Shown: positions 7,420 to 63,776 of the stretch, piece by piece
How positions within the stretch are numbered: position 1 is the stretch's first letter
Layout: every line of letters begins with the position of its first letter
Assembly (NCBI GenBank): GCA_022376465.1
Contig: JACDTU010000004.1
Coordinates: 806,001 to 870,000, forward strand
Source of the DNA: Cubamyces lactineus
Taxonomy: Eukaryota > Basidiomycota > Agaricomycetes > Polyporales > Polyporaceae
Reading direction: 5' to 3'
Length of the DNA: 64,000 nucleotides
The notes under the pieces: generated by a model
The model's input: the letters and a program-made list of their open reading frames with translations, nothing else
What the model was told of the DNA's origin: nothing
Databases searched by the model: none
Program-made: the position numbers and the translations under genes

Positions 7420-8376
7420 CTACAAGTCAATCACAATTGCTCCCCGAACTTGTTCGTCTCTGAATCCACCCAGGGACGCCGCGTTCACAAGGATAGTGCT
7501 CTCCTTGGCCGATGTTCGGCCAAAAACACCGCCAAAGAAGACCACCAGCAAATCCCACCAGCCTCCCGTTCGTGCGAGGATCCGTTCGTATGCTGCCTGT
7601 GCCTTGGTCCACGTTAACGACTCGACCCCACGCGCAGCGTGAATGTGCCCGCAGATGTGCAGCCGAGGCCGGACTTTCCACACCGCCGACAGAAGCGCAG
7701 CGCACCCTGAACCTTTGTCGACGTGATGCACGGGAGGACCGTGTGTGATCAAGATATCGGTGTCAGGAGGAATGGAATCCCACTGCGCTTGCACAGGAGA
7801 CGCGCGGGGGTATTGGAACGCCCACGAACCATGCGCTGGCGTCAGCGGGCTGCCGTATATTCGGAATGTGCGCTCGCGCACGGCGATCGTCGTGGCGGAT
7901 TGCTGGAGGTACACGAGTGCGGGGAACGCGTCTAGCAACGTGGCACGCGCGTCGTCGTCGCTGAGGGCGCGGTCGTGGTTTCCGGCGATGAATATCTTGT
8001 GAGTGTGCGGCTGCGATGCGAGCCACTGGAGAGCGTCGCGCAGTTCCTCTGGGGTGCCTGAGTGGGTGAGGTCGCCTGCGTGTATGAGGATGTCCCCGTC
8101 GGGTAGCGTCCCGAGTTTTGCGTGCTGGCTGTGGGTGTCGGATATGCAGACGACGCGAACGGGCACCTCGTTGGCGGATGATGCCGCGAGTTCGGGCTGT
8201 TTCGAGGTCGATTCGTACGCCTTACGTGCTAGGAAGCGCAGAGGGTCTTGAGTGAATAGTTCGAATGCGGTAGGCTCGCGACGATGGAGGAGTGCATCCA
8301 GGCTCATCGTGGATGTGATGGTAAGGCGGAACGCTGGGAAACGCCCAGAGTCGGCGCACCTGAACCTAGTACACAT
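7420..8376 (-). CDS. Calcineurin-like metallophosphoesterase (MPPED1/239FB-like)
   Basis: An uninterrupted 318-residue ORF carries the whole metallophosphoesterase signature: SDTH (residue ~79), GDLTHSG (~96), GNHD (~131), a THGPP block (~211) and GHIH (~240). These supply the Asp, His and Asn ligands of the two-metal site. The compact arrangement and the IAGNHD and ICGHIHAARG blocks resemble MPPED1/MPPED2-type and fungal Ser/Thr-phosphatase-like proteins that hydrolyse phosphodiesters or monoesters. The substrate is unknown. A second Met (MSLDALL, base 8307) is an equally good start and would drop 23 residues. There is no obvious membrane segment. Confidence 0.88.
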   Translation of the reverse strand: MCTRFRCADSGRFPAFRLTITSTMSLDALLHRREPTAFELFTQDPLRFLARKAYESTSKQPELAASSANEVPVRVVCISDTHSQHAKLGTLPDGDILIHAGDLTHSGTPEELRDALQWLASQPHTHKIFIAGNHDRALSDDDARATLLDAFPALVYLQQSATTIAVRERTFRIYGSPLTPAHGSWAFQYPRASPVQAQWDSIPPDTDILITHGPPVHHVDKGSGCAALLSAVWKVRPRLHICGHIHAARGVESLTWTKAQAAYERILARTGGWWDLLVVFFGGVFGRTSAKESTILVNAASLGGFRDEQVRGAIVIDL

Positions 8377-8670
8377 TTCCTAATTCAGACGCAGCTTCTG
8401 ACCACAGCCGGTGCATACAGCCAAATAATTCAACTCCAAGGCGAATGCCCGTATCCCTTTGGCCACTTACCAGGAAGCGGAAGGTCGGGAGAATTTTCAA
8501 TCAATGCGGTCTACTGGTGAATTCATAACCCGATACGTATAGGATGGTCGCTACTTCGAAAACATAGATGCATGGAGGCGCTCTTTGTGCGAAAGGCCGG
8601 TGCAGGCTCGAAGCGTAGAGTTACAAGCTATCTTACAATGAGAACGTATGAACAACACCCTCTGTAACAG

Positions 8671-9412: not shown

Positions 9413-10214
9413 GGTTGGAAGGTGTTGATGAGCAGAGAATGTGTCGGGGGATTGCACTTTCTTAGTGCTGTTAGCACCAGCAATTTATACGCGAATCCAT
9501 AGCTTGGAAGGCTGTCAAACCTGGGAGTCGGCGCGCCTTCTTACCAGCCTAGCTCGAGTTCAAACCTTCAGGACTACCACCGGCGTAGAGTCTAAGGCCT
9601 GCCACCATCCTCACAGTTCAAACGTTCGTAGTAGGGTTTGGTACCCCTACAAGTGGTTACAAAAGTGCTGGAAAGAGATCTGGTTAGCGTTGAGCTTCAG
9701 GTGAGTTGTGGATACGATGCCCAATGTCCCACTTACAATCACAAAATACCTCTTGCTGTTGCTTTTACGTAGACAATGGTACAGACAGTTCTTCCAGTCA
9801 GCCGCGTATTGCGTGATGCTGCGCTTGCTATTACTGCCGGCGCCCGGGGAGAACCTGGGAGCGAATCTAGTGGCTTTACCGCGGTTCTGGCGTCGTACAC
9901 GCCCAGATAACAGAGGAATGCACACAATAGCGCTTCTTTGGTGCATGGACGAGAGAACACATGGGTATGTACTGCGGTGCTGGCTGTGGTTGTGGCAGCG
10001 ATGAAAGGACCGAAGGACGTCATTCGTGGTTTGCAGTCGGACCGCGAACGCGCCCAGCGCGACGAACGCCAGACGCGGGCACGTCGGGCGCTGTCTCATC
10101 CGACCTCATCCTCCTCCCTCCGAGCTCTCGACGTCTGCCAACGTCAGCTCTCCCCCTCTCCTCTCTCTTGCCTCACTGTCTCGCTCGACGCCTGCGGTAG
10201 CGTCCTTGCTGGTC
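9413..10214. other. Divergent promoter region, no gene seen
   Basis: This is about 800 bp between the divergent start codons of the nucleotidyltransferase-like gene (minus) and COQ1 (plus). A pyrimidine-rich stretch lies at ~10125-10180 just before the COQ1 start, as in many fungal promoters. The ORFs here show no family resemblance. Confidence 0.5.
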
Positions 10215-11771
10215 ATGAGACGATGTTCTGTTGCTGGGGTCCGTCGGCCTTGCCTGCCACCACCCGCCTCGGTCACGCGGGCTCGCGCGCATAGAAATTA
10301 CAGCGTACACGTCCAACAGAAAAAGGCTCCCCCAGCACAACCGCAGGCGCCTCTCGCTAATGACACATTCCGTACTACAGCAAGCACGCCCAAGCCACCT
10401 GCTCGTCCAGATCCCTATGCGCTCGTTGCGCCGCAGCTGAAGGAGCTTCGGGAGACGCTGCTCAACCTCCTTGGCTCGTCTCATCCTTCCCTCACCGAAA
10501 TCGCGAAATACTACTTCCTGCACCCCTCAAAACAGCTCAGACCGCTCCTCGTCCTCCTGTTTTCACAGGCGACAAATGGACTCGGCAGCGGCTGGTATCT
10601 GAAGAAGTGGGCCGCAGAGTGCGAGGGCGCAGGCGGGCGAGCGGAAGAGCTGGATCGTCCGTTGACGCGTGCCGACGTCTTGAATGACTGGAACCCGAAC
10701 ATGCCTGACCACACTGCGTCGTTCCAGACGTCCTTTACCCTCAGGTCGCCACGGCCGCCTCACCAACCGCCCTTACCTCCCCCCTTCCCACCAGCACTCC
10801 ATGTTCCCATCGTCGCATCGCCGCTGGCACTCCTCCCAACGCAAGTTCGGCTTGCGCAGATAGTGGAGATGATTCACGTCGCGTCGCTCCTGCATGACGA
10901 CGTCATAGACAAGTCGCCTCTGCGCAGAGGGGCAGCATCCGCCCCAGCCGCCTTTGGGAACAAGCTTTCGGTTTTGGCAGGAGACTTCCTCCTTGGCCGG
11001 ACGAGTGCTGCGCTGTCCAGACTAGGCGAGAACGAGGTCGTCGAGCTCATTGCAAGCGTCATTGCGAACCTTGTGGAGGGCGAGATCTTGCAACTCAAGT
11101 CCGTTCATGCGGATGAGCTCGGTATTGCGGGCTTGTCGCCGACGGTTGGGCAGGAAAATTGGAACATCTACCTTCAGAAGACCTACCTGAAGACGGCCAG
11201 TCTGATGGCGAAGGGCGCACGCGCAGCAGTCGTCCTCGGTGGGTGCAAGGAGGGCGAAGTATGGAAAGAGGTCGCCTACGCGTATGGCCGCAACCTCGGC
11301 ATCGCATTCCAGGTAGGCTCGTGGTTATTGCGACGGAGAACGAATTATTGACCATCGGATGACTAGCTTGTGGATGACATCCTGGACTACGAAGCGGGAG
11401 ATGCCACCCTGGGCAAGCCTGGAGGAGCAGACCTCCAGCTAGGCTTGGCAACCGGACCAGCGTTGTTTGCTTGGGAGGAACACCCGGAGATGGGCCCACT
11501 CATCAAGCGCAAATTCGAGCAACCTGGCGATGTCGAGCTGGTATGGCATCGATCGCATACTCAATGAATACGCACTGAATACTGATAACCACCCCTTCTG
11601 TGTGTGCAGGCAAGGGATCTCGTGCGGAGGTCATCCGGCGTCGAGCGTACGCGCGAGCTCGCCCGCGCACATGCGGAGAAGGCGAGGGAGGTCCTCAGCG
11701 TCTTGCCCGACAGCGAGGCCAAGGGGGCTCTGGAGGTGCTGACGGAGCGGGTAGTGAAACGGACGTCCTAA
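10215..11771 (+). CDS. COQ1: Mitochondrial all-trans polyprenyl diphosphate synthase (ubiquinone side chain)
   Basis: Exons 10215-11312, 11367-11540 and 11610-11771 encode 477 residues. The N terminus is Arg/Ser/Ala-rich without acidic residues, as expected for a mitochondrial presequence. Key motifs are KQLRPLLVLL, EMIHVASLLHDDVID (first Asp-rich motif, DDVID at residues 228-232), GDFLLGR, and LVDDILDYE (second Asp-rich motif, DDILD at 369-373). These bind magnesium and the allylic and isopentenyl diphosphates. Family knowledge: Coq1 makes the polyprenyl tail of ubiquinone. A Pro-rich loop of roughly 35 residues sits just before the VRLAQIVEMIH helix. It stays in frame and I read it as an insertion, not an intron. 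In-frame Met codons upstream of 10215 exist but the sequence looks like 5' leader. Confidence 0.9.
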
Positions 11772-39955: not shown

Positions 39956-40422
39956 GTGAGACACGCGTACAGGTATGAAGATCTTACCAGACCGTTCATT
40001 CGCGACGTGGTTCGTGTTCACGTTTCGTGGTCATTTCGGTGTTCCATAACAGTGCTGCATGTGGTCTAGTTACATTTATTGGGTATCTGCGTGTATCAGG
40101 TCTGTGCTTTCAATACGAGTCAACATCTGTGCAACCGTTCGTGTGCGTGGTCCTGAGCGAGGTGAGGTTCGGGATTTCGGGCATGCGTAGGGAGGACCGG
40201 GAATGGCGGTGCGTGGCTGGAACGCACGTGGGCGTGTGATAGCTGTATGCGGTGACCTCACCGCGCCTGGCGGCAGTGACAGTGGAGGCGCTTTCACCAC
40301 GTATTCCATGTTCTGTACCAACCACCGAGCTCGCAGAGCTCGTTGACCCATTCCATCCGTCAGTCCATTCTATCCACCATTCTAGACTCAACTGACTCGA
40401 AAGCGCGCAGGCAGGACGACCA
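39956..40422. other. Intergenic region, promoter of the SMP-domain gene
   Basis: A 467-bp spacer. No ORF or RNA gene is supported. Confidence 0.4.
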
Positions 40423-43400
40423 ATGTCCCTGAAAGCGCTCTTTTATGCATACATCCTTGGCGGCTTGACTTTCCTCCCCCTCGTGATCTTTGGTGCTATC
40501 TTCTGGACAGTATACACCTCTGTGCCCGTCGGCGACCCCGATGCAGACAAGTTCAAGCGAGGCGAGCTCGAGGCCAAGTCCGAAGCGGAGAACGAGGAGC
40601 CTTCCTCCACTACCGCAGCGCCCTCCGCAGCGGACCTGAACGACGTCGCCAGGCCGCGAAAGGGGTGGCTCACCGTCCGGCGCACGTTTGAGGAGACCCC
40701 TGGGGATGCGTCGTACGTCGGGATGGTGCGTGGCTTCTTGGATGCGCGATCGAAGGACCCGAAGCGCTCCCGCCCGAAGGACATGTGGTACGTCGCGCTC
40801 AAGGGACAGGTGCTCTACCTGTACGAAGACGAGAGCATGACGGAGTGCGAGGCGGCGATCCAGCTGGGCGTGCACGATGTCGTGATATACCCCGAGGGTC
40901 TCCCGGACGGCGAGCTGTTTGCGAAGCGCAATGCGATCTGTCTGAAGCCGAAGGCGTCGGTGGCGACGGAGAAGGAGATGCCGAGCGTGACGAAGGAGAT
41001 GAAGCTGGGCGAGGAGAACGTTGACGAGATCGTGGAGGAGAAGGGCGGGAATGCACGGCAGAAGCAGAGGGAGCGGGAACGTCTGGCGGAGCTGGAGAAG
41101 AAGCGCGATGAGGCGAGGGAGCAGGCGTTGGATGTGTCGACGCCGTGGTTCATCTTCGTGCGCTCCGCGGTGGAGATGGAGGACTGGTATCTCGCCCTGG
41201 TGCACGCGTCAGATAATCCGCCGAATACGTCGACTCTGGACCCTCTGAAGCCCGTATTCAAGTCGGACGACATGTCGCATCTCGTATCGACGCTAGACGA
41301 GCAGCCCGACGTCATACCCATGCGGTGGCTCAATGCTCTGCTCGGTCGGATATTCTTCAGCTACTACAGGACCCATACTCTGGAGTCGTACATCATCGGA
41401 CGGCTGATGAAGAAGATCTCGAGGGTCAAGCGGCCAGGGTTTCTCACTGATATCGTCGTCCGGGAAGTCAGCGTCGGGAACCGCACACCTACGCTCAGCA
41501 AACCCATGCTGAAGGAGCTCACGAAAGAGGGCGACGCGGCATTAGAGGTACACCTCTCTTACAAGGGTGAAGTGCGTATCACGGTGGAGGCGACGGCGAC
41601 TATCAACCTTGGCGCGCGGTTCAAGACATATACCGTCAAGCTGGTTTTGGCGTTGGTTCTTCGGGAGATTGAAGGCAACCTGCTGGTAAAGGTTAAACGT
41701 CCACCAAGCAGCCGTATCTGGTATGCGTTTACGCAGATGCCAAGAGTCGTGTTGGACGTCGAGCCGGTCGTGAGCGATCGTCAGATCACCTGGAGCATGA
41801 TCCTGAGCACAATCGAGTCCAAAGTCAAGGAGGTGGTGAGTAGGGATGTCATATTAATCATGCTGTCTCGTAGCTGACATAGGCGGACAGATACAAGAAT
41901 CGGTCGTTTTGCCCAACATGGACGACATTGCGTTCTTCGAAAGCTCGCAGTACCAGCACCGAGGCGGTATTTGGGCAGATGCATCACGTCGTGAACGCAC
42001 GCCGTCAACACCGGAGGAAGAACCGCTGCCGTCCACCGATGGTACTAGCACCCCTGCATCCGCCCCTGTCACAGAGACCTCAAAGCCCGAGGGTGAAGAG
42101 ACGCAACTCCCGCCAATACAGCGCTCGCGTTCGGCTGAAATCGAGAAAACCTCAGTTAGCGCCTCGCCTCCGGAAGCTACGCCTATCGTCCGGGCAGCTA
42201 CAGACGTGGCATCCACCCCAGCAGTGGGCACATCGCCATCAGCACGCCGGCGTAGTTGGTTCCCAAGTGTTCAGGAAGATGTTGAGACACCTGTACCCTC
42301 CGTGCCCGAGCCATCAGATATCGACGAAGGCGAGCCTCGAGGACGAACCTCCGCGCCGGACATTGCGATGAGTAGACGATCGAGCTCTACACCGAATACC
42401 GCTACACCCAAGGCCTCACAGGACGACAACGCTCCATTTACCGAGGACCCTGGTGACGAAGGTCAATACTTGACACCGGACGCTTCCCACCGTCGCAGCT
42501 CTTCGCAGCATTCTCGTTCCGCATCTTCTCGCGCGGCCTCGTTCTCCTCGCAGGGCGGTGATGTTTCTGATGAAGGGTCTGATCCTCAGATGGCCACCTA
42601 CAGGTCGAAGAGTCCCGCACCCAGCGGAAGCTCTCCCCGTCAGACACCTACGAGTCCCAGCTCGTTCCTGCAGACGCTCAAGTCTCGCGCAGGTGACAAG
42701 CAGGCGCTGAGCAACACTGCAAAGGAGGCAATGCGCAAGTGGACCGTCAACTGGAACAACTTCCGCCGGGACAACGCGGCTTCCACCTCCTCCACACCGG
42801 TCGCTGAGGAAGTCCCTGACGGCGGACACGGAGACCAGCGGCGTATCGACTCCCGGACACAGATTGGCCGTCCGAGCTACGCCGAGGTACGCGCTGCGGT
42901 CGCAGAACGGCGGGAGCGAGAACGCGCGCCTCTGGTGGAGGGTTCTTCAAGAAGCAATCAGCACGCGTCTGAGCCTATCCCTGTTCCACAGAATGGGAAG
43001 GGCAAAGAAGCGTTGGGAGCAGAAGATGCTTCGCCCGCTCAGTCACGCCTCACAGCCTCTTCCCCGTCGGACGAGGGTGCGCCGCCTCGGTCTGTGTCCC
43101 CCGCCGCTGCGATGCTGCCTGTCGAGAGAACGGACTCGCACGTATCGACGACGTCGCGGGAGAGCGCGTCGCAGGTGCTGGGCATTGCGCCAGAGGAGCC
43201 CGAACGCCCACCATCGCCCATCCATACACAGCCGCCTCCGCCGAAGACAATGACCATTCCCGGAATCCATGCAAGCCATCGCGGGGAAGTGATGTCGATG
43301 GGCTACGTCGCGCCTCAGCCAGCGCCCCCAGAGACGAAGAAGGTGCCCCTGCAGAGCGTCTACCGGCTCTGGAAAAACCCTGGCGCTGCGAACTCGACAA

Positions 43401-54173: not shown

Positions 54174-55434
54174 CTGCTCAATAGTGTCAGCTCACCAGAT
54201 CCTTCACAGATCTGACCATTACACGTACCCTGAGCGTGCTGTCCCAACTGCCGGTGCACAACGCCATGCCATCCGAGCTGACGCCGAGACAACTAACACG
54301 GTTCTCGTGGCCAGTGAGAACACCGACCCGCTCGCCCTTGAGAGTATCCCACACGTTGCATGTCCAGTCGTCGTAGCCACCAAACAAGATCCGACCAGAA
54401 ATTGAGAATGCGACTGACGTGATACCGCAGAGGATGTTGTCGTGAGTGAACGCATTGAGCTCGCGGTCCGCCCGAATATCAAAGAGGCGGCATGAGGCAT
54501 CATCCGAACCAGTAGCGAAAGCATCTCCGTTAGGGAAGAAGCTGTCGAAGGGTTAATATCGAAGTAGAGCTCAGAATTTGGAGTTACGGACCTGACCGCG
54601 TTGATATCGGACTCATGACCGGTGAAGGTCTGGGTCGCTTTGCCGCTGCGGATATCCCACAGCTTCGCTGTAGCATCACAAGCGCCTGAGACGAAGACGT
54701 TCTGGTTGGGCCCAAGCGACAAGCTGATATAGTTGTGAACAACGTGCGACGCCCGCCAGACGCGACAGCTTACCTCATCACATCACCTGTATGGTCGCTG
54801 AACTCAACGACACGGACGCCGGCCTCAATATCCCACAACATGCAAGTCATGTCACCTGAACTCGTCACGATCTGGCGGTCGTTGAGGAAGCGGCAGCAAC
54901 TGAGGTAACCGGAGTGAGCGCTGAGCTCGCGCGCGCCCTTCACGTTGTTACCCTCCTTGGAGTGGAGGTTGTAGATAGAACAGATGTTGTCGAGACCACC
55001 GCATGCCACAAAGTTGCCAGAGGGAGAGTATGCGCAGGTCATGACCCAGCTGGAGCGGAGAGGGATGGCGTGAACCTTGTTCGTGGTGTATGCGTCCCAA
55101 ACGATGAGCTTTCCGTCTTGCGACGCAGAGACCAAGTGCCGCCTATCGGTCGCCCAGTGCATTGCGTAGATTTTGGCAAGGTGACCACGAAGAGCACGAC
55201 GGGGACGCATGACGACTCGGGGCAGGGCAGGAACTTCATTCGCCATTGCTCGCACTGTCGTCACGCATGGGAGTTAGCTGGCTCTAATCAACGCGAGATG
55301 GCGTAAGCAGGACACTGACAGCTAGTATCCGCTGAAGACTCTCTCTTCGCGCGGATTTTCTCCTTGAGGCTCTCAGCCTCGCGGCGAGCAGCAGCAATGC
55401 GCTCCTGGATATCTCCTTGAGGTGACTGGGACAT
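54162..55434 (-). CDS. Heterotrimeric G-protein beta subunit (WD40 propeller)
   Basis: Five exons (55320-55434, 54774-55254, 54592-54723, 54229-54541, 54162-54173) give 350 residues, the expected length. The N-terminal helix with [17 protein letters not shown] is the coiled coil that pairs with G-gamma. Seven WD repeats follow. Clear blocks include [57 protein letters not shown] and [20 protein letters not shown]. The last repeat ends [11 protein letters not shown], which needs a 12-nt final exon encoding Val-Trp-Ala-stop. Family knowledge: fungal G-beta transmits pheromone and nutrient signals. Reading through the last intron would replace VWA with an unrelated tail and break the propeller closure. 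Confidence 0.93.
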
Positions 55435-56107: not shown

Positions 56108-56445
56108 ATGGCCCAAAGTAAGGCTGCCATCGTCTGAAACGGTAGAATGTGTACTGATTAGGAATTGAGTTCAACGTTGGCGCACAGAGCTCAATAACTT
56201 CTGTCAGACGCACGCTTTGACCGTCCAATGGTCGGAAACGCAACATGGCACTCAGTTTGCGCCGACATGGACGGCTGCTGTGTCCAGTACGTCCCAGCAT
56301 GCCGATGGCTGTTTGTCCGATGCTCATAGCCGCATGAGTCGACGGCGCCGAATGGGGACGTGGATCTGGTACTACCAGAGCAACTGCGAGGGAGCTTGCG
56401 GCCGAAATGGCCTTGCGTGGTCTGTTCCACTCTCACGCAGCTTAG
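56108..56445 (+). CDS. Small stand-alone dsRBD protein, copy A
   Basis: Three exons (56108-56117, 56188-56286, 56339-56445) give 71 residues. Helix 1 reads KLNNFCQTHALTVQW. The middle contains GTQFAPTWTAAVS, and the last exon reads IDGAEWGRGSG then ARELAAEMALRGLF. The order helix, three strands (VxIDGxxxGxGxG) and an Ala-rich final helix is a double-stranded-RNA-binding domain of about 65 residues, essentially the whole protein. The region-2 loop that in active dsRBDs is GPxH is GTQF here, and the region-3 KKxAK is TTRATARE, so RNA binding may be weakened. The last intron is phase 1, immediately before the Ile of strand 3, as in copies B, C and D. Confidence 0.68.
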
Positions 56446-56949
56446 ACCGCGGTCAGTGCCCAGCGCAATGAACAATGGCCGCGAGACGCTCACATATGCA
56501 TTGCACACTCTCTACTTCACGGCCGTCGAATGAAACGGCCTCAGCATATCACACCTACCACAAAGCCTGACTCATGCGGCTTGGGATAAGCTCTGTCGCT
56601 ACCTGTTCTTCCTATGCCATCCGTCGCGGCGCAACGTCGACACCACATCGTTTCGAATACTACGAAGCTCTCTATCCTTGGATCAGGCGATAGCGGTCCG
56701 AAGGCACACCGCACTACGGAACTTCATTTTCCTCCACTAATGAGTCAACCGGCCCCATGAGATTGGATAAATCTCCACGATGCGTATACAGAAGTCCTAG
56801 GACAAGGGCGCAAGTAGCCGGCTCATGATCCGGCCTCGCACTGACTCTCTATGCTGCTCTTCAAGATTCGACCAATTTTTCGCCTGCGGATATACACTTG
56901 GTGGCGCTACTGTGTCATGGTCGACGGCAAAGGAAACCTTACGCGCCCG

Positions 56950-57050
56950 AACGTTCTTTCTTAGAACGGTGTAGGCGCATCTGTACTCAGCGGCTTTTGA
57001 GCAAGCGTTCCCGGGCTTTGCGAATGATGTATTCCCTGTACCATCGTTGA
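56950..57050 (-). pseudogene. Possible dsRBD C-terminal relic
   Basis: After an acceptor-like caagcag on the minus strand, the frame reads INDGTGNTSFAKPG and then CSKAAEYRCAYTVLRKN. This resembles strand 3 plus helix 2 of the dsRBD family, with the phase-1 start before Ile-Asn seen in the plus-strand copies. No upstream exon with a helix-1 motif joins in phase, and the frame continues past the domain into unrelated sequence. A decayed, inverted copy is an inference. Confidence 0.25.
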
Positions 57051-58515
57051 CTGCTTGGGATCGCTCGAAGTGGGAGGTGCGTGATAATAGGGCGTGCATC
57101 ACGCCCCTCCCGTGTCGAGATGATCTAATGTTCCGTTGTCCGGAGCGCGCACCTCCTGCGTCAGTGGATCCGTGAGTTCTTGTGAATCCATGCAACTGCG
57201 GTCTTCTTCGTACAGGATCACGAGCGTACGTTCTCAAGGTGTGGTCACAACTACATATCGTCACAGGATACGACGAAAGCGTCGATTGTGGCGACTCACC
57301 TATGTGTCATCGTTGAATGATACTGGCTTCATCGTTCCCCTGCATCCGGACGAACACTTGCGAGTCTCATGCACGATCCTTCGTGCCATGAAATGGCAAG
57401 CGCTTATCCGTGTGTCTTCCAACAGACTTTGCAAGACAAACCATCAGCAACGGCTCACCTCAACGTGAACGTTCACCTGCCACGTCATTTGGGCGAAGTA
57501 ATCACGGTGATCTACTAGGGAAGCGATTTCTGGTTCCGTCACAGCACAGTAACCGCCGGAACGCTTAGAGGCAGTGCGGTCACTCGCTTCTTCCTTTCCT
57601 ACTCGTTCACCAAATCAGGCAGAACAAGATCGGGTCTCGAGGGTCGTTGGATCTGGTTCCCGCTTGGAGGATGTCACCCAAGCGATGCCCGTCCAAGGAT
57701 AATTTGGGTGCATTGAGCCCCTTTCGGACACCGGGTCCGCCTGGGTACGCTCGCGCCGACCGCTTCGTCGGCCACGATGGCGTCTTTCAGCCTTGGCTGA
57801 GCATCGCGGCGATTCAAACTGCCTATGACGGGGATCACGGTGAATAAAGCCTGAGGACCGTGTCATCAAAGGTATGTGGGCGCCCTGTGGCCCCCTAAGG
57901 ACCCGCTTGCGGCAGTTCCCTTTGGCCCAGGGCGCCGTCTGTCCCGACGCTGCGCTGACCATCGGAGCCGCGGTGTCTTCTCTCCCTCCACAACTCATCG
58001 CAATTTCATAAGCTAAACGCATCGATGTGGGTGGCGCTTGCGGTGGAACTGTACGTGCAGCCACGGAAACGCAGCCTTCACCGTCATTCAGATCAAGCAG
58101 GATAGATCCCGACCACATCTGGCGGTGAAGACGGAGCATTGTAATATCCGCAAATCCCGATAGGCTACCTAGGAACGGCAGGTACGGTAGATCTCCATAC
58201 TACGGTTCCTCACATCTCATCTCGACCATGCAGGGCTTCCCGCACCATCGCGTACCAGCTGGCGAAGTGCTGCATTGACTCACTTCCCGTGGTCCGAACG
58301 TCTAATCCCGCTCCGTGAACCCGCATGACTGTGGTCGCCGCGAGCGCAGCCGTCTCTGTATTCCAATCTGTGCCGCATACCTGTCTCTGGATATGCGCCC
58401 AACACTGCTCCCATTCTGTTTTCTCCTTTGATCCTTGTCAATCTTAGCGCCCCGCTCACAAGCAGTGTGTCCGAATATTGCAGATGCTCGGATTCGTCGT
58501 TGGTGGTCATGTCGA

Positions 58516-58522
58516 TATAAAT
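58516..58522 (+). promoter_or_regulatory. TATA-box candidate of dsRBD copy B
   Basis: TATAAAT, 115 bp before the ATG at 58637. Confidence 0.3.
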
Positions 58523-58636
58523 GTCGTAGGATGTTGAGGATGGCTCGTATCCAACCTCCTCATCCCGAGAGACAAGAGCACTCAGTCCCTCAAAGCAAGC
58601 GAAACTTCCCATCCTCCACTTATCAAAAATATCCCG

Positions 58637-58972
58637 ATGTCCCAGCAACGTAGGTCCATTACCATCTACGGGTACTAATATCCGGGCTGACCGAGATACA
58701 GACTGGACCATGGAACTCAACAACTTCTGCCAAAAGAACCATCTGGCATGCACATGGGTTGAACGCCAGAGTGGTCCCCTCAATGCGCCTACATGGACCG
58801 CGTTTGCATATAGTAGGCCTTCACCATCTTTGCTTGCCAGGGGAGCGCTCATGTGTGCACGGCAGTTAATGGCATGGAGTACGGCCGTGGGTCATCTCTG
58901 AGGAAAACGGAGGCGAAGGAGCTTGCCGCGGAGACTGCGCTACGTGTCCTATGGCAACAACGAGGTTTCTGA
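58637..58972 (+). CDS. Small stand-alone dsRBD protein, copy B
   Basis: Exons 58637-58649, 58702-58812 and 58866-58972 give 76 residues. Exon 1 encodes only MSQQ plus one base. Its intron contains a textbook TACTAAT branch site. The domain begins MELNNFCQKNHLACTWVE, continues SGPLNAPTWTAFAY, and ends with INGMEYGRGSSLRKTEAKE and LAAETALRVL. Region 2 is GPLN (Gly-Pro kept, His lost) and region 3 has RKTEAK, close to the RNA-contacting KKxAK. It is the nearest relative of copy A (shared LNNFCQ, APTWTA, ELAAE). An ATG inside exon 2 (58710) could give a shorter product of the same domain. Confidence 0.72.
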
Positions 58973-60326
58973 GTCCACTGCGTAGGTGCTCTCGCTAAGG
59001 TATTCGCTACTGTTAGCGTGCTCATTGTGTATGCATCACGCAGACGAGACGACGCAACCACGCATAGAATCGCGCTCCCATACCCTCTTACTAGTACTAA
59101 TTGCCCCTTGCACCTCATACGTTGTAGCGATAACGTCCCACGACTCACGCCTGACTGGATCTGTACGCTCTAGGAACTCTGCTAATGCTCTCATTGGCCT
59201 CCGCTCCCCCGTGCTTCCCTCGCTCTTGCTGTGTAATTGCCTCAGGCTACAGATGCTTTCATGCGATGCTCTCTGGTCGTAATGCAATGTCTTGACACCC
59301 GCTTCGAGCACCGCTTGCGTCTACAAGGACTTGAGCCTGCTATGCTAGGACACCGCTCAGGAGCCTCTGCGCTGAGGGTCGAGTGAAGTACTACTGACAC
59401 GAGTGTGCTGCCTTACTGCGCCTTCCAGCAGCGCCTAATCTCCGAACCCCGGCGCCCCAATATTGTCGCAGAGCGTCGTCGATGACCCTCAGACGTTTGC
59501 CTTCCTGAGCACTTCCCCGGTACCGTCTTTTGCACAAATCTGGATCTTTGGTGCTTCGGGAACACCCGATATAGACCGATCATGTCTGCCCGGCCTCGAC
59601 CACCGAGGGCACGCGAAGTCGTCGAGGACATGCACGATGCTCATTTCGTTGAAGCGGGGCCCTCCTTGCCGCAAGAATGCACCACGGGAAGATTCATGTC
59701 GATATGCCGGTCTGCCCTTCCGGGAGCCACCACGCGGAAACAACCAGCAACCTTCAAGCGGACTCATTGTCGGAGAAGACGCGTCCGCGAAGCCCCGGCT
59801 GCTTCACGGCTTCATGCGCACTGGCTGGAGGTGAGCTTGACACTCCGCATCCTAACCCTTCAGGCAAATTGACTGCTCTCCGCTTGAAACGTGCCCCGCT
59901 GGACATCGTCCCTCAACTTCAAGTCGGTTGACGTATGGACGTTGCCCCCCGCCCTTCTCCAGCCAACAATGCGCAGGTTAGGGTCATGCCCCCTTATCGG
60001 GTGAATGCGCAAGGCTTCCTCTTCCCTCTTCTCCGAAGTTCGACCTATGGAGCGGCGGGCTCTCCCAGTCAGTGATCTCCTTGTACCCGCTTTGTTGCTG
60101 TGTCATTCAAGTCGATCGAGCTGCCTGTGATACGCAAGGTTTTCAGTAAACCGTATGAGCTCCTTGCCCTACCATTCGGAAGGTCCCCGTCTCTGCTGCA
60201 GCGCTATTCGCTGGCCCGTAGAACGCGAGAGCAAGCCGAGGGTCCGAGCGAAGCAAACAGAGGGTATATAGCAGCAATGGCTGGAGGCCTAGAGCCCCAC
60301 CAAGCAAGACGTAAAGACAGAGCAGG
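58973..60326. other. Spacer between dsRBD copies B and C
   Basis: About 1.35 kb with no supported gene. The ORF at 59582-59872 lacks recognisable motifs. Confidence 0.45.
60265..60270 (+). promoter_or_regulatory. TATA-box candidate of dsRBD copy C
   Basis: TATATA, 62 bp before the ATG at 60327. An ATG at 60277 would open a short upstream frame. Confidence 0.35.
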
Positions 60327-60801
60327 ATGGCCACCACAGGTACGTTGCGCCGTTGCTTGTCACTTGCATCCCACCGCCGACGCCGACACCGATGAGCAGA
60401 GCACGACAACGCCGGAACCGTGGCACTCAACAACTGTACGTTGACCTATGTAGATGTTAATGCTTGCGCTGACTCATGCTTGGCTTAGATCTCCAGAACA
60501 AAGGCAGGCTGACCTCGCTTGTTTGGAAGGACGTGCAGGACGGGCCCCGTCATGCAGTTGTGTGGACTTCTTCCTGCACGAGTACGTCGTTTTCTGCCTC
60601 ATTCGTACGCCGACGGTGTAGTTGATTCAACGGCTGAATGATGCAGTCGACGACGAGGTGCTGGGTACCGGAACAGGCAACAAGCTCAACGTTGCCCGCG
60701 ACGCTGCCGCCAACGCCGCTCTTGCCGTTCTCGTCGCCAGAGACGAAGAGCTGGAGGGAGACGCTAGCGCCTCCACCTCCGAGCCCGCAACGGCGACTTG
60801 A
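60327..60801 (+). CDS. Small stand-alone dsRBD protein, copy C (most canonical)
   Basis: Exons 60327-60339, 60400-60435, 60489-60581 and 60647-60801 give 98 residues. The domain reads ALNNYLQNKGRLTSLVWKDV, QDGPRHAVVWTSSCT, IDDEVLGTGTGNK and NVARDAAANAALAVL. It keeps the loop-2 GPRH that contacts the minor groove, but region 3 has only one Lys (GNKLNVARDAA). A Ser/Thr/Glu-rich tail of about 20 residues follows the domain. Unlike A and B it has an additional intron inside helix 1, after LNN and one base, shared with copy D. The four-exon model holds one frame and each intron has a plausible branch site (for example CTGAAT before 60647). Confidence 0.78.
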
Positions 60802-61510
60802 GATATCTACAGCATAAGGCCGCGTCGGCGTCCGATCTTGGGTTCCTGGCCACTGCCTGCACGTTGCGTTCATTCTAGCGATTCACATATCGGACTTCTT
60901 CACCCGTCTCGTGTAGCCGTATCTGTTCCTAGATTCTTGTGATGTGTCTTCTCGATATTGTCTGTATTCACAATCCCTATGCCTAACCTGTGGGTGTCAG
61001 TGGTGACCGGTACTCTTCCGGAGAGAAGACGCCTGCGCTCAGTGTCACGAAGCGCCCCATGTCCCTGAGCGTCTATCCGGCTGTCGCAGCCATGATTCAT
61101 CGAACGCCTCGCTTGTTTCCTGCGATTGCAGTTCGACAGTTGCAGTATGCTTTCTACCACTCAGCTCATCGCCTGAACATGCAACCTCCCACCCCTGGTG
61201 TTTCATCGCTCCTGCCTACAACGCATATCTTCTCATGCCTCCGGAATTTTGCACACTCCGGCTCCCACTACCAGAGTCATTAGGCAGGCCATGGGCACAA
61301 TCCAGCGAGTCGCCGCCCCACAAGTAAGCATCGTAATTTACGGTGACGAGACACCGCGTCGCAGATTGTGAAGGTGCACATGGCTGCCGTTATTAATGAT
61401 TCATCGGTACGTCAGCTCACATCGGCTGACACTGGGTGAAGAGTCTTTTGCCTCCGCGTTAATCCTTGTGACTTGAGTGGCATATTCAAATCTCGATGTG
61501 CGAGGCTGGC

Positions 61511-61606
61511 GTTAATGGTCGCCGTTCCGGTCATCGTGGCTCGCGCTTGCCTAAGATGGTCTTACGCAAGCGCAGTCATGCAACGATAGCATTCCTAACT
61601 CGTTAG
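61511..61606 (+). pseudogene. Possible dsRBD C-terminal relic
   Basis: The frame reads VNGRRSGHRGSRLPKM and ends ATIAFLTR before TAG. It resembles the strand 3 (VNGxxxGxxG) and helix 2 end of the family, but helix 2 is disrupted. Upstream, a fragment HMAAVINDSS at ~61390-61420 could be another part. Confidence 0.2.
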
Positions 61607-62619
61607 TCCTGTGTTCGTTCTTGTCCGGACAGGGCTAATCAGTTGTGGTGCTCGGAATGAACAGGTTCTAGATCAGATGAGGGGCACTTGTGCATGTTCC
61701 TGAGGCACCGCTCATGGCAGACTCCTCAATCGCCGAGCCAGTGATCATCTCTACCGCCGTGCGATTACACGATTACGGTGTGGGCGGCGGGCATGACGTC
61801 TGTACCACGGTTGTCGTAGGGGCACGACTGCGTGTCATCACTTCTTGCCCCCAGAGACCGACATCCACTGGGGCTTCGGTGTATGACTTCCCAGGCAGCC
61901 TTACATCTGTCGAATCTAGCAATGTCATAGGCGCATGAGCCGTCCACAAGACAAAGAAATTTCGATCGGCTCAAAGGAATGGCAGATGTCGCAGAATGTA
62001 AGTTTGTGGTAAGACGCTGATCTACCGTGCGCCTCGCCTCCGCGGTTGACAAGAATAAAGACCCGCTCATCGATATTCATGAAACCAGTTGTTGTGTGTT
62101 GGCGCACATTTGTGCGAGGCGAACTGCTGCAAACAGGGAAACCGCTTGTTCCTGCAGCAAGTACGCCACTAAGATTGTAAGTCTTCTTGCCAGATCTACT
62201 ATCTCAACGGCTCACCTCTGGTATAGCATCAGAACATGCGGAGCAAACCAGACGTACGCCGCCGTGCTGTAGCGGCGAAATGTCAATCTAGGGTCTGGTT
62301 ACATTCGTGATATCTGCTCAAGCATCGACTACTCAGTAGCGCGGTCCGTGTCGGCGGAGAACAAATCGGCGAGAACTTCTGCGACAGGTAATTCCTAATC
62401 ATCGGAAAGAATGCCTCAATGACGTTGCGATCGAGCTAGGCGTGTCCTGAGGCCCAAACACGGCGATAGCTCTGCATGGCCGCATATCGATGTTTGCCAC
62501 AAGGCATTCCCGATTCGTGAGTCTCATTTGCCGTTCCACCGACTGTCATGAAGGCGATGGCACCGGTGGAATCCCTCGCCACTTGATATTATCGACGACC
62601 GCTAAGGCGCACGCTCATG

Positions 62620-62626
62620 TATAAAA
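62620..62626 (+). promoter_or_regulatory. TATA-box candidate of dsRBD copy D
   Basis: TATAAAA, 98 bp before the ATG at 62718, a normal distance for a transcribed leader of ~65 nt. Confidence 0.5.
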
Positions 62627-62717
62627 TCGGTGAGAGGTCATTCACTCAAACCAACGGCGCGAACTCCTCTCGCAAGTCAACTCCTGAACTTTCACAGAAT
62701 CTCCTCTATCAAGCAAT

Positions 62718-63102
62718 ATGCCGCGTACGCAGAATTAAGCTTCTAACCGCGACACTGTTTTACTGACTTGACCCTTCAGGCTACATTGTCGACCTCAACA
62801 ACTGCAAGTGTGATTGAGAAGTTGCAGCGGCGTGTACTAACGTTGCTTCTCCAACAGACCTCCAGAAGCAGGCTTCGCTTCACGTACTCACGTGGGGCGA
62901 GGGGCAGGAGGGCAACCTGTGGGTCATGACTTGCAAGAGTAAGCCTTTCTCAAGTACTGATGTCTCCGATGCGTCGCTGACGACGGCCGAAGTCAACGAT
63001 GTGCCGCGGGGCGTTGGAAAGCATGTGAAGAAGGGCTCAGCGAAGGAAGAGGCGGCCAGACAGACCCTCATACAGCTCGGGCTATTGTCTGAATCGGAGT
63101 AG
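62718..63102 (+). CDS. Small stand-alone dsRBD protein, copy D
   Basis: Exons 62718-62724 (7 nt), 62780-62803, 62858-62938 and 62993-63102 give 73 residues. The domain reads DLNNYLQKQASLHVLTW, EGNLWVMTCK, INDVPRGVGK and GSAKEEAARQTLIQLGLL. Region 3 has HVKKGSAKEEAA, an intact KKxxAK-type patch, while the GPxH of loop 2 is lost. The intron layout equals copy C. The second intron starts with GC (ACT|GCAAGT) and has a TACTAAC branch site. A TATAAAA box lies upstream. Function is unknown: a protein this small might bind dsRNA directly or pair with a Dicer- or PKR-like partner. Confidence 0.75.
62804..62857 (+). other. GC-AG intron of dsRBD copy D
   Basis: The donor is AACT|GCAAGT, the acceptor ccaacag and the branch site TACTAAC. 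The homologous intron of copy C uses GT. Without removal the frame stops. Confidence 0.75.
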
Positions 63103-63382: not shown

Positions 63383-63776
63383 AGGACCCCTGACAATGGT
63401 ACGGACAGCCCTATCCGATTCCGGACAAAATCAGCCCGCTGGAAGGGGCCTATGCTGTATTTTTTCCAGACAAAACCCCCCCAAATTGGTCACCAACCCT
63501 GTTCCCCAGACGGACAGATTGACCAAAATATGATGGATTCAATGAGCGCTTATGGACATGAGCGCCCAAAAGATCATGTGACTGGGCGCCTGAACAAAGC
63601 GCCTACCATTTTGGGACATATTTGTCAGCAGAATCGGGCGCTAAGGGGCCCGGAGGGGATCTGAAGGTGGATTTTTTCCGGACAGTTCGAGGCAAAAATG
63701 GCCAGAAATCCGCGGACATTTTCACCCAAATTTCGGTCGAGGTGATATAGGTTCACCTACCATTGTCAGGGGTCCT
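63383..63776. mobile_element. Non-autonomous hAT-like MITE, 394 bp
   Basis: The ends are perfect 19-bp inverted repeats: AGGACCCCTGACAATGGTA at 63383-63401 and its reverse complement at 63758-63776. Both sides are flanked by the 8-bp direct repeat CGGCTGCA (63375-63382 and 63777-63784), as left by hAT-superfamily transposition. The interior is richer in A and T than its surroundings, with TATTTTTTCC-type runs, and encodes no transposase. Superfamily assignment rests on the 8-bp duplication and inverted termini. The terminal bases do not match the usual CAGGG start exactly. Confidence 0.85.

Follow-up and report, generated by a model that had tools for sequence, protein, structure and literature searches.

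A cluster of small single-domain double-stranded RNA-binding genes in Cubamyces lactineus and its place in an Agaricomycete protein family

Why does a fungus carry, at one locus, four very small genes that each encode one double-stranded RNA-binding domain (dsRBD) and little else? The question is raised by a stretch of 64,000 nucleotides of the 36.3 Mb Cubamyces lactineus genome (C34:806001-870000, hereafter the window), in which four spliced plus-strand genes, called g1 to g4, lie between 56.1 and 63.1 kb and encode products of 77, 76, 98 and 73 residues, respectively. An initial annotation of this DNA had suggested a lineage-specific expansion. On the contrary, the array appears to join distinct classes of one protein family in a linkage of long standing, and a role around RNA silencing can be tentatively proposed for its members.

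Gene models and domain identity

The clustering of four stand-alone dsRBD genes was borne out by the spliced models, and the translations of g2 and g3 are letter-for-letter equal to the deposited proteins P0001 and P0015. Every product consists of one dsRBD with short ends, to which g3 adds an acidic tail of about 22 residues past the domain. The sequence features named at the outset, an LNN helix 1, a central W, an I(D/N) strand and an Ala-rich last helix, are all seen in the alignment. The ten introns (2, 2, 3 and 3 from g1 to g4) measure 52-65 nucleotides and are all in phase 1. In all four genes the coding piece of the start exon is 7-13 nucleotides long and the first codon of strand 3 is split by an intron (A/TC or A/TT, the slash marking the intron). 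An extra intron within helix 1 (LNN T/AC) is common to g3 and g4 and is lacking in g1, g2 and the paralogues located on contigs C39 and C41.

The splice joins first proposed held overall, with two changes. In g1, the acceptor at 56187 of the first model (71 residues) was replaced by 56169 (77 residues), which restores the W-x-x-E-L-N-N start of the relatives. In g4, intron 2 is now read as GC-AG. Compared with this model, the deposited protein P0055 contains two additional residues (CK), as if its donor were placed 6 nucleotides beyond the GC donor. The deposited donor was not adopted, as it would put two more residues in helix 1. With a GC-AG intron the LNNYLQ helix is recovered and the intron falls in phase 1, and we take the deposited form to be an annotation error. 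Two additional residues are present at the same point in the deposited class III proteins P0083 and P0094, which suggests that the GC donor of the class III helix-1 intron is old; it is as if annotation software had skipped it in the three entries.

No protein matching g1 was found among the homologues listed, namely 118 from a profile search at E <= 10 and 120 of the 207 from a wider search at E <= 0.01, and g1, whose model is intact, may therefore be missing from the deposited annotation. Its absence while its three neighbours are listed could also mean that some members, g1 being the likeliest, are decaying or unexpressed copies. In the same way, a class I-like copy at C19:132k (L016, about 1501-1787) has no acceptor AG before the strand-3 exon at the conserved place and is probably a relic or spliced differently. 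However, the frame of g1 is open through 77 codons, its introns are GT-AG and the key residues are present, and decay of array members appears very unlikely.

As for the domain itself, g1, g2 and g3 score above the 23-bit gathering cut-off of Pfam dsrm (PF00035), so that the Pfam check first suggested succeeded for three genes, whereas g4 falls below it (E 0.0047); the intact g4 orthologue P0067 reaches 28.4 bits. A family hidden Markov model (HMM) built from 113 relatives, every Cubamyces row being excluded, recovered all four with scores ranging from 69 to 96 bits, while the top score among 1,924 scored shuffles (2,000 made) was 10.4 bits. In a six-frame unspliced scan of the whole window, this leave-out HMM matched the exons of g1-g4 only, the next match having an E value of 0.6, and thus found no further family member there. 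Pfam recognises one dsrm domain per array protein, and the RNase III domain PF00636 gave no match in the four.

The alpha-beta-beta-beta-alpha fold that the initial annotation expected was predicted by AlphaFold2 for g2 (predicted local distance difference test, pLDDT, 84.9) and for P0067 (pLDDT 84.7), which belong to class I and class III, respectively. Foldseek matched the g2 model to dsRBDs of PKR (best), ADAR1, Staufen, HYL1 and TRBP, with the ADAR1-dsRBD3 dimer at rank 3, mitoribosomal chains at ranks 7 and 8 and the DRB7.2:DRB4 structure at rank 32. The P0067 model was matched to a mitoribosomal chain at rank 1, then to a dsRBD solved with double-stranded RNA (dsRNA; 1di2), PKR and Staufen. 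The best profile and sequence matches were PKR, ADAR and TRBP chains. That the array genes are real dsRBD genes is, on these models and scores, hardly open to doubt.

Table 1. Coordinates (window numbering), exon structure and supporting evidence of the array genes.
Feature	Position	Strand	Structure	Basis
g1, dsRBD gene, class I type A	56108..56445	+	exons 56108-56117, 56170-56286, 56339-56445; 77 residues	spliced translation, intron phases; Pfam dsrm 36.4 bits; leave-out HMM 75 bits
g2, dsRBD gene, class I type A	58637..58972	+	exons 58637-58649, 58702-58812, 58866-58972; 76 residues	equal to deposited P0001 (C8Q73DRAFT_788159); Pfam 48.8 bits; leave-out HMM 94 bits; AlphaFold2 pLDDT 84.9
g3, dsRBD gene, class II	60327..60801	+	exons 60327-60339, 60400-60435, 60489-60581, 60647-60801; 98 residues	equal to deposited P0015 (C8Q73DRAFT_788160); Pfam 34.3 bits; leave-out HMM 96 bits
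g4, dsRBD gene, class III	62718..63102	+	exons 62718-62724, 62780-62803, 62858-62938, 62993-63102; 73 residues	deposited as P0055 (C8Q73DRAFT_788161, 75 residues); Pfam 17.9 bits; leave-out HMM 69 bits
g4 intron 2	62804..62857	+	read as GC-AG, within helix 1	position and phase shared with g3 intron 2 (60436-60488)

TATA-box-like sequences were observed about 60-100 bases before the start codons of g3 (about 60265) and g4 (about 62620), and the C39:428k paralogue has such a sequence as well.

Family, classes and history of the array

The search at E <= 10 returned 110 proteins below 0.001, and the weakest of its 118 matches, P0118, has an RNase III domain and lies outside the family. The named homologues among the matches listed are Agaricomycetes, as far as their genera were recognised, and are presumably distributed over Polyporales, Gloeophyllales, Boletales, Agaricales, Russulales, Thelephorales, Atheliales, Corticiales, Jaapiales and Gomphales. 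Their entries carry automatic names only, either hypothetical or 'DRBM domain-containing protein', and belong to the same family as the array proteins. Among 127 aligned rows, 118 have at most 100 residues, with a median of 10 residues ahead of the conserved L. Judged from these sequences, the family is an old one of proteins of about 80 residues, with little beyond one dsRBD, in many Agaricomycete genera. Although the domain itself is familiar and database entries exist, no account of the family, its class structure or its linkage was found in the open-access literature searched, most subscription journals and bioRxiv preprints lying outside that search.

The C. lactineus genome contains at least seven genes with full models, the four of the array and those at C39:383k, C39:428k and C41:776k, all with LNN in helix 1 and a single dsRBD between short flanks. 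The intron pattern of the family, with phase-1 introns following the start exon and at the joint of beta2 and beta3, is known from this genome alone. Entries P0027, P0047, P0074, P0086 and P0148 are located on contigs of 0.9-1.5 kb with the domain uninterrupted, which suggests that they derive from spliced transcripts. At C34:1496k (L007, about 1200-1600) a single, more distant dsRBD comes after a stretch rich in Pro and Gln; by eye it was placed outside the three classes. P0046 (158 residues) apparently contains one full domain preceded by the C-terminal half of another.

A tree of 127 rows and 81 columns, many forks of which are weak, was built from 126 of the 175 distinct proteins (selected by eye), minus P0055 and plus the g1 and g4 models. 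The 49 proteins outside it comprise some intact entries, a few fragments, and long or intron-containing models. Class I groups 65 rows from 34 genera (support 100/99) and includes type A, which holds g1 and g2 (15 rows, 99/86), as well as a conserved group named WRM (23 rows, 98/94). Class II, which holds g3, contains 47 rows from 31 genera and 45 species (94/99), and the core of class III, which holds g4, contains 9 rows from 4 genera (100/98). Classes II and III, taken with related rows, form a group separate from class I (62 rows, 100/99), in agreement with the helix-1 intron common to g3 and g4. In this classification the array is composed of one class II gene, one class III gene and two fast-diverging class I genes.

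This composition bears on the lineage-specific expansion first proposed. The four genes are consecutive on one strand, and g1 and g2 belong to the same class, as a recent tandem expansion of one dsRBD gene would have it. Nevertheless, a single clade of g1-g4 was rejected by the approximately unbiased (AU) test (p = 1.3e-27), array genes of different classes are only 31-40% identical, and a search for repeats of at least 25 nucleotides between 55.5 and 64 kb found a single 40-nucleotide pair at 70%. A g3+g4 pair, chosen after inspection of the tree, was also rejected (p = 0.0014). Neither g1+g2 (p = 0.34) nor g1+g2 with P0002 (p = 0.41) was rejected, yet the tree does not show g1 and g2 as sisters. 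We consider a recent expansion of the four together highly improbable; it can be entertained for g1 and g2 only.

The initial annotation had further suggested that similar clusters be sought in other Polyporales. Class II and class III proteins are found on apparently the same contig in all seven species in which both were found, namely C. lactineus, Cubamyces sp. BRFM 1775 (whose class III protein, P0095, is outside the tree), Trametes cinnabarina, T. meyenii, T. maxima, T. elegans and T. cingulata. Contig sharing was read from contigs of equal size; consecutive protein names in three of the seven, C. lactineus, T. cinnabarina and T. meyenii, back it and point to adjacency there. In BRFM 1775 the g2 orthologue P0002 is located on the class II/III contig as well. 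It is this sharing, together with the position of P0002, that makes the array look like an old linkage of distinct classes.

Between C. lactineus and its close relatives, in comparisons that mix species pairs, identity is 79% for g2 and 81% for g4 (both with BRFM 1775), 82-84% for g3, 57-68% for the C39 genes and 96% for the C41 gene (with C. menziesii). With C. menziesii alone, g3 is 84%, C39:428k 57% and the C41 gene 96% identical. Array and C39 members are thus 57-84% identical across Cubamyces species against 96% for the dispersed class I gene on C41, and their faster divergence is compatible with an antiviral or anti-transposon role.

RNA contacts and candidate roles

Canonical dsRNA-contact motifs are a GPxH loop and KKxAK at helix 2. 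The corresponding positions were defined on the g2 sequence, with PKR as a check, and residues were counted in classes cut from a quick tree, a careful tree giving the same groups. In the order P30, H32, K/R55, K/R56 and K/R59, the contact residues are present in 43, 32, 42, 8 and 46 of 47 class II rows, in 0, 0, 9, 0 and 9 of 9 class III rows, in 53, 46, 25, 4 and 56 of 65 class I rows, and in 22, 23, 1, 0 and 21 of the 23 rows of the WRM group.

The likeliest reading, put forward tentatively and at somewhat below an even chance with the identity of the genes included in that judgement, is that the array products are adaptors or decoys of minimal size that bind dsRNA in the context of RNA silencing; the initial annotation had likewise proposed dsRNA decoys or cofactors. 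The gene structures, the fold prediction, the family, its three classes and the linkage come from sequence and models, and from there we infer RNA binding, dimerisation and a link to Dicer or RNA-dependent RNA polymerase (RdRP). The proteins would contact A-form RNA duplexes by way of helix 1, the loop between beta1 and beta2 and those K/R residues that remain in helix 2, possibly pairing as homo- or heterodimers. In this way they would modulate the access of Dicer or RdRP to dsRNA of viral, transposon or inverted-repeat origin.

The silencing machinery of the genome would leave room for such proteins. Piwi matches are found on 5 contigs and RdRP matches on 7, and loci on C5, C6 and C42 that each have two RNase III matches indicate at least three Dicer-like loci. 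Five Dicer pieces gave no dsrm match over cut-off, in a scan that read exons apart and could miss a last exon. The C5 piece has a weak dsRBD match (dsrm, 13.5 bits) that lies within the Dicer_dimer region, and the C42 piece a DSRM_2 match under the cut-off (E 0.018). The tail of the C6 gene possibly contains a worn dsRBD, by eye. Dicer-like loci devoid of a Pfam-recognised C-terminal dsRBD, together with several Argonaute and RdRP genes, would have use for dsRBDs acting in trans; as to a link with the array, the presence of these genes is permissive only.

Several observations weigh against an adaptor or decoy function. The full canonical contact set is present in 1 of the 127 aligned members and incomplete in the other 126, and GPxH combined with K/R55 and K/R59 is found in 36 of 127. 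The middle lysine of KKxAK is K or R in 8/47 class II, 0/9 class III and 4/65 class I rows, class III is devoid of the GPxH pair (P 0/9, H 0/9), the class I WRM group has K or R at position 55 in 1/23, and the net charge of g3 is -7. In addition, Foldseek ranks a mitoribosomal chain, and no silencing protein, first for the class III model, the flanking genes recognised encode a G-protein beta subunit on one side of the array and a ubiquitin hydrolase domain on the other, and genome-wide profile searches placed no Piwi, RdRP or RNase III match in the window. Incomplete contacts do not preclude binding, because dsRBD2 of PKR, which reads K-Q-E-A-K, also lacks the middle lysine. However, since the full set is present in a single member, some classes may instead serve to bind proteins.

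Indeed, the domains could be mainly protein-protein modules that form dimers or attach themselves to Dicer, to RNase III or to a DExH helicase, with weak or no RNA contact. The third dsRBD of TRBP and Loqs is such a module. The incomplete RNA contacts agree with this possibility, and so do the ADAR1-dsRBD3 dimer and the DRB7.2:DRB4 interaction domains among the g2 fold matches. Candidate partners, identified by eye, are a DExH-helicase-like gene at C34:2030k, in which dsrm matches twice, and an RNase III-like gene on C23, in which it matches once, the latter without support from the PF00636 search. On the other side, class II mostly keeps two of the three contact regions, and N12 of helix 1 and two W are almost invariant, although fold constraints alone may account for this. 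We regard a mainly protein-binding function as rather unlikely.

Another possibility is a housekeeping function in the folding or processing of ribosomal, transfer or mitoribosomal RNA, apart from silencing. It would suit the strong conservation of one class I group, to which the C41 gene belongs, and the mitoribosomal chains matched by both models. Nevertheless, array members diverge faster across Cubamyces species, and the few residues before the conserved L leave scant room for a mitochondrial signal, which makes housekeeping unlikely.

A more elaborate form of the adaptor proposal is that Agaricomycetes possess a built-in set of dsRBD-only proteins whose three old classes split the RNA-binding face and pair into composite dsRNA binders that determine to which Dicer a duplex goes, classes II and III forming a co-inherited module. 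In detail, class II mostly retains the loop together with the outer lysines; in class III just the outer lysines remain, and the conserved group of class I has kept the loop and a single lysine. Such pairing is at present quite unlikely, but the split of RNA-contact regions among classes is a concrete and testable prediction.

Known dsRBD proteins offer partial parallels. According to one study, plant DRB7.1/7.2 regulate with DRB4 the small interfering RNA of inverted repeats by sequestering dsRNA precursors (PMC8138440). They are the nearest functional parallel, as accessory dsRBD proteins whose DRB7.2:DRB4 structure is among the g2 fold matches, but the fungal proteins have little beyond the domain, the likeness is at the dsRBD level and sequestration is on record for the plant proteins. 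Members of the plant DRB7 group are bigger and contain further sequence besides their single dsRBD. The Dicer partners TRBP, Loquacious, R2D2 and HYL1 have two or three dsRBDs. The array proteins are similar to them in dsRBD fold and profile but have one dsRBD, and so fall short of the two or more that mark Dicer partners of the TRBP, R2D2 and DRB type. PKR dsRBD1/2 gave the best profile match (3e-18) and the best fold match of the g2 model, yet the fungal proteins contain no kinase domain and have the domain in single copy. A profile match was also obtained to 'RNA-binding protein E3' (E 7.7e-8), which we take to be the poxvirus protein that sequesters dsRNA; unlike it, the fungal genes are cellular, contain introns and encode no further E3 domain.

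If dsRNA binding holds true, a minimal dsRBD family, present in many mushroom genera and easily expressed and deleted, would provide a handle on dsRNA sorting in fungi with several Dicers and many RdRPs, and on mycovirus control. Otherwise, the array serves as a caution that runs of small paralogues may be old and not recently expanded.

Surroundings of the array

Upstream of the array, a G-protein beta subunit gene is located on the minus strand at 54219-55273 (WD40_Gbeta, 290.5 bits), and downstream, also on the minus strand, a gene with a ubiquitin hydrolase domain (UCH, 55.1 bits) is Sad1/USP39-like by eye. The minus-strand open reading frames between the array genes (56797-57306, 57615-58199 and 58280-58891) gave no Pfam match. 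Domain scans in the window covered 18 of its 100 open reading frames of at least 150 residues; other genes comprise a calcineurin-like phosphoesterase (7420-8379, minus strand), a polyprenyl synthetase (10005-11351, plus strand) and an MMM1-domain protein (40396-41877, plus strand). Finally, a 394-bp element with perfect 19-nucleotide inverted ends was observed at 63383-63776. It has 8 full-length copies including this one, at 95-100% identity, while other places in the genome share only its ends, and it probably represents a family of non-autonomous DNA transposons resembling miniature inverted-repeat transposable elements (MITE-like).

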